A DNA stretch of 20,559 nt from a virus. This document shows, one piece after another, positions 10,884-17,349 of this stretch. How positions within the stretch are numbered: position 1 is the stretch's first letter; each line of letters begins with the position of its first letter. The position numbers and the translations under genes were made by a program. The notes below the pieces were generated by a model. It was not told the DNA's origin. It searched no databases and worked only from the letters and a program-made list of their open reading frames with translations. The DNA lies in the IMG/VR virus record IMGVR_UViG_3300021406_000526, positions 1 to 20,559 of that record, one strand, 5' to 3'.

Positions 10884-12890
10884 ATGAAGAAGCGCAAACT
10901 CTCCAACCCGCATTCGCGTGCGGAGCTGATCGCCTCCTACGCCTACGGCGAAGGGTCGGCTAAGCCACCCGTCGAACCGAAGCCCAACGAAAAGAAAGAG
11001 CCGGCCACCGACCCGGACGCGGAAGTCAGCGCGGCCCTCGACGCTGCGAAGGCTGCTGTAGACAAGGCTGTCAAGCTCCAAGAAGCGGACCCTGACGGCA
11101 CGACCGATCCGCACGACAAGGCTGTGCTCGAAGGGCTGGCGCCTACCACCGATCCGATCGACGAGAACGGCAACGTAGACGACGAACATGCCTGCACCAA
11201 CCCTGACTGCAACCACCTCGCCTCAGCCCACGCCGACACCCCAGACGGCAAGAACCGTGGCCCATGCTCGATGCAGGGCTGCGAGTGTCCCGCGATGGAG
11301 GTCAGCAGCGAACACAACGAAACCGAAGGGGAAGCTGAAGGCGATGGCGATGAACCCGAGATCGGCAAGGAAGATACTGCTGCGTCGGGCGACGCTTTCG
11401 CCACGGTTGTACCAGCCGAGCCCGAGGCGCGGGCGCCAACGGAGGCCGCGCCGGACCCGAACCTGAACGCTCCACCGGCTGTCGAGCCCGGTGAAGCGAT
11501 GGGACCCGAATTCTCCGGCGTCCTCATCATCGAGGGCCAACCCACCGGTGATGGTCGCGAAATCGCACCCGAAGCACTCACCTGGCGCGATCCCCCGCTC
11601 CCGCTGATGGGCCTAAAGACCGAAATCCATGATCCCGAGGGTTTCGACATGAACGACCCCGCAGTCATCGCGGGACGCATCGACACCCTCACCCGCGAAC
11701 CCGGCGAAGGCAACACGCAGCTCATCAAGATCAAAGGGTTCTATCTCGCCAACGAGGACGGCATGTACTTCGCCGACCTCACAGAGGCAATGGGTCGGAT
11801 CGGCATGTCAGGCGACGTCGCGATCCAAGCATCTGAGGTCACGGTCGAGGACGTAGACGAGATGGGCTTCCCGACCGACATGAGCGAGGTCCTGACCGAG
11901 GGCACCATCATGGGCGGCACAGCCTGCCCATTCCCTGCTTTCCAGGGCGCCTATATCGTTCTCGGTGACGGTACGGACACTGCTGAAGCGAAAGCTATCC
12001 CACAGCAGACTGAGACACCAGAAGTGCCCGATCAACCACCCGCTGCCGTGACGGCTGGCGGCCAGTTGATCCACTGGATGACCTACGAGGAGTGTGAGCC
12101 CTGCTCCCAAGGCGTAGAGGTGATCGTCGCCTCCGGCGCTGGTCCGACTAGGCCACCGAAGTCGTGGTTTGAGGACCCAAACTTCACCGAGGGTGACGGG
12201 CGACTAGTCGAGATATTGGACCGTCGTGGGAAGCGTGCGCTCGGCGGCAAGTTTGCCTGTCCACTCACCATCGAGGCGAACGGCCGGGTCTACGGGCATA
12301 TCGCACCTTGGGGTATCTGCCACACCGGGATCGACGGCCAGTGCATCCTCGCACCACGCTCCGCTGTTGATTACACCCACTTCAAGCGCGGCCAACATAT
12401 CCTCACTGCTGAGGGAGAGAAGGTACGTGTGGGTGTCCTGACAGCCGACGCCGGCCATGCCGCCACCAAACTATCCGCATCCGCGGCAATGGCGCATTAC
12501 GACAACAGCGCATGGGCTGCCGCAGACGTAAATGCCGGCAATGACGAGTACGGCATCTGGATCGCTGGTGCGGTTAGGCCAGACGCCACCGAGGCACAAA
12601 TACGCGCTCTAACCGCTGCAAGCATCTCCGGTGACTGGCGTGAGATCGGTGGCCAGCTCGAGCTAGTCGCCGCGCTCTGCGTCAACCAGCCCGGTTTCCC
12701 TCTCGCTGTTGTGGCGGCCGGGAAACGCGAGAGCCTCGTCGCTTACGGTGGCGGTGTGATGCACCGACTCAAGCATCCCGTCCAACCGGCACAACCCGAG
12801 GGTGACATCGCCCTCCGTGCAGCCATGGGACCTCTCCTCGGTGAGGCCAAGAGTAGGGCGCGCGAGCGCATCGCAGCACTCACCAGCTAA
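10884..12890 (+). CDS. Capsid maturation protease with N-terminal Cys/His knot (668 aa)
   Basis: ATG 10884 has GGGAGG 8 bases upstream. The N-terminal 200 residues are acidic, Pro- and Ala-rich and probably scaffold-like or disordered. They contain a compact knot, CTNPDCNHLASAH ... CSMQGCECP (about 104-136), with Cys/His spacing suited to zinc. The protease region follows (about 208-360): FSGVLIIEGQPTGDGR, a TEIHD segment with H249, AGRID, and GRIGMSGDVA with S309. H249 and S309 are candidates for the Ser/His pair of HK97-type prohead proteases. The C-terminal half (about 425-612) has the conserved actinophage pattern GRVYGHIAPWGICH, AMAHYDNSAWAAADV and SGDWREIGGQLELVAAL. It should cleave scaffold and itself during head maturation. 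The catalytic assignment is inferred. Confidence 0.85.
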   Translation: MKKRKLSNPHSRAELIASYAYGEGSAKPPVEPKPNEKKEPATDPDAEVSAALDAAKAAVDKAVKLQEADPDGTTDPHDKAVLEGLAPTTDPIDENGNVDDEHACTNPDCNHLASAHADTPDGKNRGPCSMQGCECPAMEVSSEHNETEGEAEGDGDEPEIGKEDTAASGDAFATVVPAEPEARAPTEAAPDPNLNAPPAVEPGEAMGPEFSGVLIIEGQPTGDGREIAPEALTWRDPPLPLMGLKTEIHDPEGFDMNDPAVIAGRIDTLTREPGEGNTQLIKIKGFYLANEDGMYFADLTEAMGRIGMSGDVAIQASEVTVEDVDEMGFPTDMSEVLTEGTIMGGTACPFPAFQGAYIVLGDGTDTAEAKAIPQQTETPEVPDQPPAAVTAGGQLIHWMTYEECEPCSQGVEVIVASGAGPTRPPKSWFEDPNFTEGDGRLVEILDRRGKRALGGKFACPLTIEANGRVYGHIAPWGICHTGIDGQCILAPRSAVDYTHFKRGQHILTAEGEKVRVGVLTADAGHAATKLSASAAMAHYDNSAWAAADVNAGNDEYGIWIAGAVRPDATEAQIRALTAASISGDWREIGGQLELVAALCVNQPGFPLAVVAAGKRESLVAYGGGVMHRLKHPVQPAQPEGDIALRAAMGPLLGEAKSRARERIAALTS

Positions 12891-12972
12891 CCCAGTTTTC
12901 ACCTCACACAAGTTCCCGCCTGGGAGCCTGCTATAAGTTTCGGCACGGTCGTAATAGCGGCTGGTCGTCACG
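12891..12972. other. Upstream part of the capsid leader, no gene seen
   Basis: The gap between the protease and capsid genes is 164 bases, by far the longest non-coding stretch here. In this first half I see only weak hairpins (CCCAG 12891-12895 with CTGGG 12920-12924; TCCC with GGGA at 12914-12925), no T-run, and a TATAAG-like hexamer at 12932 without a convincing -35 partner. It also contains ATAGCGG (12954-12960), a second copy of the strand that pairs with the capsid start region. Confidence 0.5.
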
Positions 12973-13057
12973 CATAGCGGACTCCCTCAAGACGCAACGG
13001 CATAGCCGGGGAGCGTCACCTCGTAACTCATCGAGCCCTGAAGGAGTCCCCGCTATG
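12973..13057 (+). promoter_or_regulatory. Three-stem leader RNA enclosing the capsid SD and AUG
   Basis: Closing stem: CATAGCGG (12973-12980) pairs perfectly with CCGCTATG (13050-13057), which includes the capsid ATG. It continues as ACTCC (12981-12985) with GGAGT (13043-13047), part of the SD AAGGAG (13041-13046), with a 2-base CC bulge at 13048-13049. Inside are two hairpins. The first is GACGC/GCGTC (12991-12995 with 13013-13017), capped by CGGC/GCCG around an ATA loop (12998-13008). The second is CTCG/CGAG (13020-13023 with 13032-13035). The fold would be a three-way junction hiding both ribosome signals of the most highly made virion protein. The pairings are read from the sequence; a regulatory role is inferred. 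Confidence 0.62.
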
Positions 13058-14773
13058 GACCGCATCAACGAACTACTTGAGAACCTGACGACCCTCTCCG
13101 ACGAGGAGCTGACAGAGCTACGCTCGGCCATCTCCGACGAGTTCGGCCGCCTAGACGGCGAGGCCACGACCGTCGAGAACGTCGCCCTCATGAACAAACT
13201 CGCCGACGCTGGCGACCAGGTCATGGCGGAGTCCGCAAACCGCGAGGCCGCACAACAGCAGGCCGAGGCCGACAAGGAGTCCGCCCGCCAACGCATCGCC
13301 GCCCTCAACGGTGAAACCGAAGACGAGCCCGAGGCAGAGCTCGAGGTCCCCGAGGCCGAAGAGAAAGAGGACGATGAGGATGAGCCCGAGGCGGAGACGG
13401 AGGAGTCCGTCGAGGAGCCCGAGGCCGTCGTCGCCACAGGTGCCGTCGCTCGAATGGCCGCCCGCCAAGGGAAAGCCAAACCAAGCCCCGAGGCCGAGTC
13501 GCCTACCGGCACTGCCCTTGTTGCTGCCGCCGGCTACCAGGCCGGACGTCCAGTCACAGACAGAAGGGATCTCGGCCAGATGCTCGGCGAGGTGGCGTGG
13601 CAGCAGGTCAGCGGAAACCTCCTCAACCAGAAGGTGATCGTCGCCTCAGCCAAATTCGAGTACCCCGAGGATCGAATCCTCGGCCCCGACGCACAGCGCA
13701 ACACGGAGCTGATGGAGGCCATCGCGGGAATAAACGCGCCACGCTACGACCGCCAGACCGGTGCTCTCGTCGCATCCGGGGGCATCTGCCAGCCCGGGAA
13801 CGTGGACTATTCCATTCCAACGCTTGCGTCTGCTGAGCGTCCCCTGAAGGAAGGCCTCACGGCTTTCGAGGTGACGCGCGGCGCCCTGCGGTTCATCAAG
13901 CCCGGCGATCTCGCTGAATGGGAATCCGCCACGGGGATCTGGACTGAGGTGACCGACGCTGAACCAGCTGGTGCTACGAAGCCTGTGAAGGTGATGGTCT
14001 GCGGTGAAGAAGTCGAGGTGTTCGTTGAGGCCGTCTCGACGCGGCTCGGGTTCGGCAACATGCAGTCACGGTTCGCCCCCGAGCAGATCGCCGCGAATAC
14101 CGACCTCGCTTTCGCGGCGGCTGCGAGGGTCGCGGAGAACAATCTCCTCAAGCTGATCAGCGAAGTCGCGGTTGCGGATCAGACCAGCGGAGCCCTGTTG
14201 GGTGCCACCCGTGACCTGATCACGGTGATCGACCAGACGGTCGCCGCATACAGATGGCTACACCGTCTGTCCGACTCGCAGGCCCTCACCGCGATCTTCC
14301 CGGCATGGTTGCGGGCGATCATCAAGACCGACATTGCTCGCGAAATCGGGCACAGCCAGAACGACGGTTGGAACGCATTGATGATCTCCGACCAGCAAGT
14401 CGACGATCTGATTACTGCGCACGGTGTCAACCCGATCTGGCACATGGACGGTCAGGCCGCGAAAGGCAGCGAATGGCCACTCCAGGGCTTCGCAGCCCCG
14501 ACAGCCAAAGGTGCGGTTGTGAAATATCCGACGAAGCTGCTCTGGTATTTCTTCGCCGAGGGTCAGATCCAGTTCCTCGACGGTGGCCGCTTGGACCTCG
14601 GCGTCGTCAGAGATGCGACCCTGGATGCGACGAACGATTATGAGACGTTCGTCGAGACGTTCGAGGGGATCGCGGACCGTGGGTTCGCCAACGGCGTGCT
14701 CCAGCTCTCCACCGAACTCTGTGCCAACGGTGGAACAGCCGGCACGATCGCCACTGCCGGCGACTGCGCCTAA
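13055..14773 (+). CDS. Major capsid protein with N-terminal scaffold-like domain (572 aa)
   Basis: ATG 13055 follows AAGGAG (13041-13046) with an 8-base spacer. Residues 1-85 are helical coiled-coil sequence (INELLENLTTLSDEELTELR; QQAEADKESARQRIA). A very acidic stretch follows (about 88-124), then a short basic segment (about 132-142). This is the delta or scaffold arm normally removed by the maturation protease. The HK97-fold coat region starts near residue 155; typical features are AAAARVAENNLLKLI, the WPLQGFAAPT segment, and the ending FLDGGRLDLGVVRDATLDATNDYETFVETFEG. It forms the icosahedral shell. The cleavage site is likely near 140-165, but I cannot place it exactly. Its leader has a striking predicted RNA fold. 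Confidence 0.9.
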   Translation: MDRINELLENLTTLSDEELTELRSAISDEFGRLDGEATTVENVALMNKLADAGDQVMAESANREAAQQQAEADKESARQRIAALNGETEDEPEAELEVPEAEEKEDDEDEPEAETEESVEEPEAVVATGAVARMAARQGKAKPSPEAESPTGTALVAAAGYQAGRPVTDRRDLGQMLGEVAWQQVSGNLLNQKVIVASAKFEYPEDRILGPDAQRNTELMEAIAGINAPRYDRQTGALVASGGICQPGNVDYSIPTLASAERPLKEGLTAFEVTRGALRFIKPGDLAEWESATGIWTEVTDAEPAGATKPVKVMVCGEEVEVFVEAVSTRLGFGNMQSRFAPEQIAANTDLAFAAAARVAENNLLKLISEVAVADQTSGALLGATRDLITVIDQTVAAYRWLHRLSDSQALTAIFPAWLRAIIKTDIAREIGHSQNDGWNALMISDQQVDDLITAHGVNPIWHMDGQAAKGSEWPLQGFAAPTAKGAVVKYPTKLLWYFFAEGQIQFLDGGRLDLGVVRDATLDATNDYETFVETFEGIADRGFANGVLQLSTELCANGGTAGTIATAGDCA

Positions 14774-14818: not shown

Positions 14819-16108
14819 ATGACCAGCACGCGCTTGGCGGTACCTGTTCCCGCGATCCCTCCCGAACCGCCAGTAATCACACTCCTCGACTCAGCACTCA
14901 GACCAGACAAGACGACAGACCCCAGCGGACAGCCGCTCGATGCGATCACGCCAGAGCAGATGGCGGCACTCCCACCTGATCTCAGGGCTGAGCTTGAGGC
15001 CCGCAAAGGCGACTACTGGCTGAAGGGCATCACCTATGCGCCAGAGAACCATTGGCCAGTCGAGCTACGCGACGCCTGCGACGGGTCGAGTATCGACCTG
15101 CCGCCAATCCCGGCCCCTCGCGGCTTGACACTCACCGAAGAGGCCGGCGGCACGGTCAAAGCAGAAGAACTCGAATACCAGGTGACCGGCAAGAACGCCA
15201 ACGGAGAGACCACCGCCCTGGCCGCAGTCAAAATCACGCCCTCCAAAGAAGGGTCTGTCAAGCTCACCTGGGAAAAGGACAACGAGACCGCCCAATACAA
15301 GATTTACGGTCGAGCGAAAGGCAGCCTGAAACTCATCAAGACGGTGGGTCCGTTCGACGACGATGAAGCTGCCGAATGGGTAGATAACGGGTCACTCGCG
15401 CCGGGTTCACCCAAACCACCATCATCCAACACCACGGGCGGTGGGGGCTCCTACACCAACCTGCCGAACGTCATCGCGATCCCCTACGGCATGGTCGCCG
15501 AGGATTACTGCAACACGTTCAGCTTCGACGCCCGCGACTTCAAGGGCCGCGCCGAACGCCTCCTCGAGAACGGCAAGTACCAGGCTACGGAGAAAGAGTT
15601 CTGGACCGGCACCCTCGCACAAGCCAAGGGCCTGCCAAACAACTACCTGGCGAAGGAAGGCACCGCAACCAACCTCACACCAGGGACCGTCCCGTCGATC
15701 GAACGCGGGCTGGAGATCATGCAGGCCGCGCTCAGCGAATGCGGCTTCGGCGGTAGGGGCATGATCCACGTCCAACGCCAAGCTGCACCAAACCTGCTGC
15801 GTACCCGCCGGGTAGGGAATCTGTTGCTTGACATGTTCGACAACATCGTCGTCCCTGGCGTCGGCTACACAGGCACAGGACCAGGTGGTGTCGAACCGAA
15901 ACCCGGCTGTTCGTTCATCTACGCCACCGACATGGTCGCCGCGCGGGTCGAGGACGAGTGCCAGGTCTTCACCGAGACGTTCGCTGAAGCGACCGACTGG
16001 TCACAGGGCGGGGAACCGAACACGATCCGGATGCGCGCCCAAAAGTTCGCGATCGCCTATTTCGACGCCGCGTGCTGTTTCTGCACCGAAGTAGAACTAC
16101 AAAAATAG
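14819..16108 (+). CDS. Virion structural protein with inserted FN3/Ig-like domain (429 aa)
   Basis: ATG 14819 has GGGAGGG upstream, after a 45-base gap from the capsid stop. The N-terminal 95 residues are Pro-rich, then come an FN3/Ig-like domain (about 98-192) and a Gly/Ser linker (SSNTTGGGGSY). The Ig-like region includes GLTLTEEAGGTVKAEELEYQ and YKIYGRAKG. The C-terminal core (about 213-429) is typical of a protein encoded just after the capsid in actinophages: EKEFWTGTLAQ, RGMIHVQRQAAPNLL, VPGVGYTGTGPGG and a closing AYFDAACCFCTEVEL. It is probably a head-associated or minor capsid protein; the exact role is not established. The Ig-like part resembles one in the next gene. Confidence 0.72.
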   Translation: MTSTRLAVPVPAIPPEPPVITLLDSALRPDKTTDPSGQPLDAITPEQMAALPPDLRAELEARKGDYWLKGITYAPENHWPVELRDACDGSSIDLPPIPAPRGLTLTEEAGGTVKAEELEYQVTGKNANGETTALAAVKITPSKEGSVKLTWEKDNETAQYKIYGRAKGSLKLIKTVGPFDDDEAAEWVDNGSLAPGSPKPPSSNTTGGGGSYTNLPNVIAIPYGMVAEDYCNTFSFDARDFKGRAERLLENGKYQATEKEFWTGTLAQAKGLPNNYLAKEGTATNLTPGTVPSIERGLEIMQAALSECGFGGRGMIHVQRQAAPNLLRTRRVGNLLLDMFDNIVVPGVGYTGTGPGGVEPKPGCSFIYATDMVAARVEDECQVFTETFAEATDWSQGGEPNTIRMRAQKFAIAYFDAACCFCTEVELQK

Positions 16109-16128: not shown

Positions 16129-17349
16129 ATGACCGTCATCAACCCCACCGCATCAATTTTCGCGGTTGCTACACGCATCTGCGCTCTAGACGTCGAAGGC
16201 TACCCCGACCCCGGGAACGCCATGTACGTCACCGAACAAATGATGAAGACCAGCCTCACACCTGTCATGGAGACGGGTGATGAACCCGTCGTGAAGAACG
16301 CCGCGGGCAACATCGCCGCATGGGCGAAGCACGCCGACATGGTCAAGTACGGCACCATCGCACTCGAACTCTCCATCCCAGACCCCGCGCTTGAGGCGCT
16401 CTGCACCGGAGCGACGCTGCTCGGGTCGTCTGCCGCCGCCCTGGGCGAACCGTCCGGTCTGACCGTCACACCGCAGATCACGGGTGGGGAACTCGCCGCG
16501 AGCACCTACGGCTACCGTGTATCCCAGTACAACTCGTTCGGAGAGTCGAAGGCCCTCACCGACGTATCGGCCGCTGTTGCCTCGGGCACCACGGGTGCGG
16601 TCGTCGTGTATGCAAAGCCTGTCGCTGGAGCTCTCGGGCTCAGGGTGTACGGCCGTACGATCGGCGTCGAGCAGTTCTTGGGCACGATCCCCAACATCGG
16701 GGAACCCGAAACGAACGCGGCGATCAAAGCCGAAACACCCACATCGATCACTTGCGTCGCCCTCACAAAGTCGATACCGAAGGGCACTAAGTTCGTAGTC
16801 GAATCAGATGCCGACACCCCGAAGGTTATCTTCACCACTACCGCATTTTGTCCGGTGGGCGTTGTGACGATCCCTGTCGAAGCATCCGGAGCCGTCGGGA
16901 CAGAAATCGCTACGAAAAAGAAGCTGCTCGCAGTCTTCGTAGACACGGGTGCGATCACACCGTCAGGCAACCTTCCCCAGGAAGACCAGACGGCAGGGGC
17001 TGGCGAAAACCTGGGCGTGAACGCTTCCGAACTCGGGATCGTCGGCAACGAAAACGGTGTCTCGATCGAGGTGTTCGCGAAGGCCATCGAACACGGCCGC
17101 CAAGCTAACAGGCTTCCGTTCGTCCACTGGATACTCCCGAGGGTTACAGGGATGCACATTCAGCCCCGTGATCTTACGAACGCGAACACGGCCACGATCC
17201 TTGAGGGTCAGGCTGGCGAGAACCCGAACTGGGGTACAGGCCCTGTCGGCGACTGGCCGTCAGCTTCTACTCGCTGGTATGGCCGGTTGCGGTGTGGGCG
17301 TGCGATCGTCCCGAAAGCGTCGTTTGAAAACACGCCAGCGACCGTCTAA
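16129..17349 (+). CDS. Virion structural protein with FN3/Ig-like insertion (406 aa)
   Basis: ATG 16129 follows AAGGAG with a short spacer. Residues 1-105 form the start of a structural domain (MYVTEQMMKTSLTPVMETGD; LELSIPDPALEALCTGATLL). An FN3/Ig-like insertion lies at about 107-200 (GLTVTPQITGGELAASTYGY ... LRVYGRTIG), clearly akin to that of the previous gene. A small beta domain follows (about 207-270, ALTKSIPKGTKFVVESDADT ... VGVVTIPVEASG). The C-terminal part (about 270-406) returns to the structural fold. Its place between the capsid-adjacent protein and the connector is compatible with a tail-tube or head-associated protein; I cannot choose between these. Confidence 0.68.
   Translation: MTVINPTASIFAVATRICALDVEGYPDPGNAMYVTEQMMKTSLTPVMETGDEPVVKNAAGNIAAWAKHADMVKYGTIALELSIPDPALEALCTGATLLGSSAAALGEPSGLTVTPQITGGELAASTYGYRVSQYNSFGESKALTDVSAAVASGTTGAVVVYAKPVAGALGLRVYGRTIGVEQFLGTIPNIGEPETNAAIKAETPTSITCVALTKSIPKGTKFVVESDADTPKVIFTTTAFCPVGVVTIPVEASGAVGTEIATKKKLLAVFVDTGAITPSGNLPQEDQTAGAGENLGVNASELGIVGNENGVSIEVFAKAIEHGRQANRLPFVHWILPRVTGMHIQPRDLTNANTATILEGQAGENPNWGTGPVGDWPSASTRWYGRLRCGRAIVPKASFENTPATV

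Follow-up and report, generated by a model that had tools for sequence, protein, structure and literature searches.

In the RNA phages MS2, Qbeta and PP7, a dimeric coat protein reads a small hairpin near a start codon and thereby represses translation. Among phages with double-stranded DNA genomes, the scaffolding protein of P22 provides a case of post-transcriptional autoregulation of a head gene, while the put RNA of HK022 has a pair of hairpins close to the 5' end of its transcript and acts on RNA polymerase. Tailed phages need hundreds of capsid subunits per portal, and to our knowledge the post-transcriptional setting of this capsid:portal ratio is mostly unknown.

Here, we analyzed the leader of a major capsid gene in a viral DNA stretch of 20,559 nucleotides (hereafter, the window), in which all features described below lie on the plus strand. 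The leader (12891-13054) is the 164-bp gap between a gene of the protease region (10884-12890) and the capsid gene (13055-14773), which matches phrog_777 with an E value of 1.4e-56 and whose start is backed by the alignment of an M-D-x-I motif with relatives; gap and capsid assignment had both been correctly recognized in a preliminary description made from the sequence alone. That description had further proposed that the 85 nucleotides ending with the start codon fold so as to hide both the Shine-Dalgarno sequence (SD) and the AUG. Compared with shuffled controls in RNAfold, the fold proved more stable, both for the 85-nt segment (12973-13057; -37.2 kcal/mol, z -4.81, none of 200 shuffles as stable) and for a 131-nt version (-52.5 kcal/mol, z -2.96, 1 of 200 shuffles as stable). 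All of the proposed pairings were found at their positions, and those of the closing stem (P1), drawn as 8 bp plus 5 bp, are present, but in the RNAfold structure their register is slightly shifted, with two bulged C's at 13050-13051. The predicted closing pairs are 12973-12978 with 13052-13057, 12979-12985 with 13043-13049, and 12987-12989 with 13039-13041. The 5' strand of P1 (12979-12989, the anti-SD GGACUCC followed by UCA) thus faces the 3' strand (13039-13049), which carries the SD AAGGAG (13041-13046); this assignment draws on the minimum-free-energy structure, the conserved SD pairing and pair counts. Below it, the extension CAUAGC::GCUAUG (12973-12978 with 13052-13057) hides the AUG in the fold of the window and is not kept family-wide. 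Both inner hairpins of the preliminary description also appear in the RNAfold structure, namely P2 (12991-13017, GACGC::GCGUC), which carries a further hairpin, H2, and P3 (13020-13035, CUCG::CGAG), with hairpins similarly placed in several relatives. In the predicted ensemble of the window, the SD core and the AUG are almost fully paired, with an unpaired probability of about 0.00 for the core GGAG.

As the preliminary description had presumed, the structure does not correspond to a known Rfam element. At the gathering threshold, Rfam 15 gave no match in the window, and a relaxed search over the leader returned mir-2040 as its best sub-threshold candidate (15.1 bits against a required 51, E 4.9). 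The sole Rfam match in nine relatives was a tRNA gene (64 bits; L031:2633-2707), situated just 5' of the capsid leader of its phage. A literature search found nothing on this capsid-leader element, and a search for intrinsic terminators or attenuators, defined as a G+C-rich stem followed by a U run, identified no plus-strand terminator within 12700-13300.

For comparison, we collected more than 100 relatives of the capsid protein, from 57% identity downwards, by tblastn, scans of viral contigs, one genome scan and named phages. Many of them are metagenomic contigs, two (L001 and L022) represent the same phage as the window, and leaders were read only where the capsid start could be placed; in distant genes the start was placed by the SD, and a few may be off. 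One capsid relative resides in a bacterial genome (Amycolatopsis tucumanensis contig NZ_JAKGSD010000023.1), and its leader contains two hairpins with CUA tips. Ten leaders were aligned (alignment A6), with the variable P3 region replaced by N and three bases between P2 and H2 of L031 omitted, an omission that leaves the columns of P1, H2 and the 5' hairpin H1 unaffected. Across H1, P1, P2 and H2, the covariation score of A6 was 0.378, compared with 0.155 for shuffled alignments (0 of 500 as high), a control that leaves relatedness uncorrected; with slid partners, which corrects for relatedness but favors a structure chosen from these same sequences, it reached at most 0.11. Overall, 84% of the cells were paired and 11 of 18 pairs had changed on both sides, including all four scored P2 pairs and all three H2 pairs, the latter paired in 10 of 10 rows. 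Compensatory changes in relatives, which the preliminary description had named among its checks, are therefore strong.

A covariance model (R1) recovered held-out capsid leaders, strongly for L034 (E 1.8e-6) and L035 (E 9.2e-6) and more weakly for L032 (0.0068), L023 (0.012), L115 (0.11) and L111 (0.19). Over 720 kb, R1 matched no site outside capsid leaders below E 0.3. In 14 whole contigs the strong site was always the capsid leader, accompanied by a few weak extras (best E 0.085, in G006); the contig of L001 contained a weak second match (G001:C1:36599-36701, E 0.29), probably by chance. A separate descriptor, run over all fetched loci, gave 15 matches, 13 of which were clear capsid leaders, compared with 3 matches in reversed sequence of equal length. 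Judged by these sequence comparisons, the fold of the window is real and is part of a conserved RNA element in phrog_777 capsid leaders of actinobacterial-type phages.

The feature with the strongest support is a pair of small hairpins with matching tips that change together. The preliminary description had noticed a repeated ATAGCGG but not that one copy is part of CGC-AUA-GCG (12971-12979), a small hairpin that shares its AUA tip with the inner hairpin CGGC-AUA-GCCG (H2, 12998-13008), nor that the two tips change together. The former is the core of H1 (12967-12982, GUC(A)CGC-AUA-GCGGAC), which is supported by its overlap with P1 and by pair counts over 19 leaders aligned on the tips only. 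In this anchored count, whose anchors were picked by eye and which is corrected by the unanchored scan below, the second pair of H1 was canonical in 17 of 19 leaders (GC 8, CG 8, UA 1; 8.7 when permuted) and that of H2, with five types of pair, in 16 of 18 (7.5 when permuted). The apparent failures, L034, L035 and L115, do pair once a single base is bulged 3' of the tip, and the same bulge occurs in L146 and L037. The H1 and H2 tips were identical in 13 of 18 leaders, compared with 6.5 when permuted (P 4e-4, optimistic, as are all our permutation P values, because the phages are related and not independent). In the unanchored scan, 31 of 84 non-redundant leaders contained a pair of C-NNN-G hairpins with identical triloops. 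Shuffling gave 2.5 +- 1.5 such leaders (at most 7 over 300 rounds), and other regions of these loci gave 5.8 +- 2.4 (at most 13). Reverse-complemented leaders also scored (21), as such hairpins look alike on both strands, so that the scan carries no strand information; when viral contigs were scanned for the tips as DNA patterns, each scan gave about 50 matches.

The matched tips, AUA in both hairpins of the window and GUA, CUA, UUA, AUG, ACG or CCA in both hairpins elsewhere, are mostly of the form N-Y-R, and the exceptions (GGC, UGC, CUU and CCG) were each seen once or twice, which is the chance level. Five two-hairpin leaders have unlike tips (L031, L032, L034, L035 and L145). In another group, eight leaders carry two hairpins with pentaloops, mostly U-N-N-A-U/C, that seem to match in a similar way; L103 has UGGAU twice, L112 deviates with GUAAU, and the upstream hairpin of L043 is unclear. 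Loop identity is kept within an RNA while the stem sequence is free and its pairing is kept, the pattern of a coat-protein-type operator. Kissing of H1 with H2 was rejected, as the tips are identical rather than complementary.

The tip state common to both hairpins has undergone at least 10 changes on the capsid tree, and neighbors differ; for example, L003 (AUA/AUA) and L102 (ACG/ACG) are neighbors with full support, and the two-pentaloop clade is nested within the triloop clade. Both copies must therefore have changed in concert repeatedly. Recent duplication fails as an explanation because the H1 and H2 stems of one leader usually differ. Such concerted change of the tips is the mark expected of a single reader that has two equivalent sites.

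To separate the hiding of the SD from that of the AUG, the SD, the start codon and the downstream bases of 42 leaders were held fixed and the upstream part alone was shuffled. The SD was less accessible than in the shuffles (mean unpaired probability 0.18 versus 0.34, Wilcoxon P 1.3e-5), whereas the start codon was not (0.34 versus 0.37, P 0.50). Thus, SD hiding is the conserved function of the closing stem, and this half of the original proposal extends to the relatives; AUG hiding fails as a general feature and was rejected as a conserved function. The SD pairing is predicted, conserved in relatives and accompanied by compensatory changes, as in an SD-sequestering regulatory leader. The AUG is closed in the window and in L028 and L102, and the AUG-hiding stem of the window is best explained as a lineage-specific strengthening of P1. 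Many distant leaders (e.g. L118 and L276) have no matched pair or clear P1, and the Gordonia GMA2/Forza/Sixama group has P1 with at most one adjacent hairpin. In the cultured Gordonia phages SchottB, Delrey21, Sitar, Tiamoceli and Lilbeanie (L269, L271, L272, L267 and L273, respectively), the AUG is hidden in a different form, CAUCGCUGG::CCAGCGAUG (CAUCGCU(GG)::(CC)AGCGAUG), and a competing hairpin, CUGGC-NNNGG-GCCGG, lies on the AUG-hiding strand; these phages offer a laboratory system for the same question.

H1 and P1 share sequence. H1 is the longer of the two hairpins, with a fifth pair in 14 of 19 leaders compared with 3 of 18 for H2 (Fisher P 8e-4), and a hairpin overlapping the 5' strand of P1 occurs in 31 of 78 leaders, compared with 15.7 +- 3.3 expected. 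Because H1 extends into this strand, an extended H1 and a full P1 compete. In the window, the outer 3' strand of H1 (GAC) is common to P1, and H1 is mutually exclusive with the AUG-hiding extension. In the free fold, the AUG-hiding form is favored over H1 by about 4 kcal/mol; forcing H1 costs 3.9 kcal/mol (-45.8 versus -49.7 kcal/mol), and the second ATAGCGG (12954-12960) then pairs with 13050-13056 and keeps the AUG closed. The two competing folds suggested in the preliminary description, together with this alternative partner, are thus supported.

Promoter-like boxes were seen about 105-145 nt before the capsid start in several relatives. L103, L110 and L112 have a near-consensus CTTGACA-N16/17-TAGATT or TATTCT at about -145 to the capsid start, and L003 (TTGCAT-16-TATACT) and L102 (TTGAAG-18-TACACT) have -10-like boxes at a similar distance. 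In the window, a possible extended -10 (TGC TATAAG, 12929-12937) would place the start of a capsid-specific transcript at about 12943-12946; it has no accompanying -35, and a consensus scan made no promoter call. Taken together, these boxes weakly suggest that the element may begin a capsid-specific transcript. A GAGYGCC / AGUGCC motif recurs in the Gordonia, Microbacterium and DSL-LC01-like leaders L011-L019, L045 and L051, where it lies 80-110 nt ahead of the capsid start and upstream of the stem that hides the SD. Many cultured phages of Gordonia, Streptomyces, Microbacterium and Mycobacterium have, immediately 5' of the capsid leader, a small ORF of about 47-73 aa with an N-terminal C-x-C (often M-G-C-x-C-x-R/K), which was not seen in the window (L266:506-652, L267:498-644, L269:486-632, L271:403-552, L273:265-408, L270:548-733, L277:143-364 and L021:1355-1525). 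This ORF is a possible candidate for a factor that reads the tips. Downstream of the capsid gene, the next gene in the window (14819-16108, phrog_779) and the major tail gene (16129-17349) each have about 80-90 residues that match phrog_19622 (esterase/lipase) and may represent an insert domain common to the two.

We consider it probable that the element is a translational operator that sets capsid output and whose reader is a dimeric or two-site factor, probably phage-encoded. In the proposed mechanism, a cis-acting RNA at the 5' end of the capsid transcript would control translation; P1 pairs the SD with an upstream anti-SD, as the comparison of leaders shows, and both tips would be read by a single factor that has two equivalent sites for RNA, most probably a dimer encoded by the phage. 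Binding of this factor, which may be a late protein, would shift the balance between H1 and P1 and thereby set capsid synthesis, either as feedback repression, with the SD-hidden form locked, or as activation, with H1 kept in place and P1 opened at its base. That a protein times or doses capsid synthesis, one of the options raised in the preliminary description, is an inference. More tentatively, and with slightly less than even confidence, we propose a new family of phage mRNA operators in a large group of actinobacterial dsDNA phages, in which identical tips and a two-site factor would have co-evolved through at least 10 specificity changes (NUA, AUG, ACG and CCA triloops and UNNAU pentaloops) while the SD-hiding stem was kept.

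The main rival to a factor-read operator is a passive element, namely a fixed translational damper and mRNA stabilizer that keeps capsid output constant or stops ribosomes from reading through, and that needs no factor. The very stable fold would suit such a role, as would the promoter-like boxes just upstream in several loci and the SD hiding itself, which is more widespread than any other feature and also occurs in leaders without matched tips. Stability, however, requires neither identical, co-changing tips nor an H1 that competes with P1, and we regard a purely passive role as unlikely. The remaining explanations rank lower still.

The tips could instead act by RNA-RNA recognition, in which they would pair either with a trans-acting RNA or with the start codon, CAU to AUG and CAC to GUG. 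Complementarity is indeed complete in the window and L028 (CAUAG/CUAUG) and in L102, which has a GUG start (CCACGG/CCGUGG). Over the leaders, tip-start complementarity was not clearly higher than when permuted (4.05 versus 3.86, P 0.064), tips with GUA, CUA or UUA lack it, and a search downstream found no further conserved complement (P 0.62). Pairing of tip and start codon was consequently rejected as a general rule, and we judge recognition by RNA very improbable.

Ranked just behind is the possibility that the hairpins mark DNA, as two small inverted repeats that bind a DNA-binding regulator beside a promoter. Their spacing of 21-43 bp and the nearby possible promoter would be compatible with this, and on either strand a palindrome resembles a hairpin, as the scores of the reverse-complemented leaders illustrate. 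The half-sites, however, are free to vary as long as they still pair and differ between H1 and H2 of one leader, while the center does not change, opposite to what a dyad operator would show; the G-U pairs and the one-sided single-base bulges (L034, L035, L115 and L146) fit RNA, and H2 lies within P2 and P1, which covary as RNA. DNA operators are accordingly given very little credence. Least probable of all is a protein-free sensor (a thermosensor or an ion or metabolite riboswitch), for which alternative folds do exist, but the model keeps the SD paired at all temperatures between 20 and 55 C, which led us to reject in silico an RNA thermometer and with it the temperature control raised in the preliminary description, no Rfam riboswitch matched, and the changing loop sequences speak against a conserved small-molecule pocket.

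If the operator reading holds, an RNA element that is found at the capsid gene alone and whose two tips serve as a specificity code would make control of the capsid:portal ratio directly testable, also in the cultured Gordonia phages with related leaders, and natural hairpin-factor pairs of many specificities would serve as orthogonal RNA tags. Compared with the known systems, the element most recalls the operators of MS2, Qbeta and PP7, which likewise are small hairpins with a short sequence-specific loop and which the C-NYR-G tip and the occasional single-base bulge bring to mind. Unlike these, it belongs to a DNA phage and occurs in two copies per leader, 5' of and inside the SD-hiding stem. 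With the ribosomal-protein-type autogenous leaders of bacterial mRNAs it shares a structured 5' leader, an occluded SD and the capacity to switch, whereas here the gene encodes a phage structural protein, no mimicry of rRNA is apparent and Rfam gives no match. P22 resembles it in the control of a head gene, although gene and phage group differ and P22 is not known to have a defined RNA operator to compare. In contrast to the put RNA of HK022, the element is restricted to the capsid gene, and its second hairpin lies inside the stem that hides the SD.
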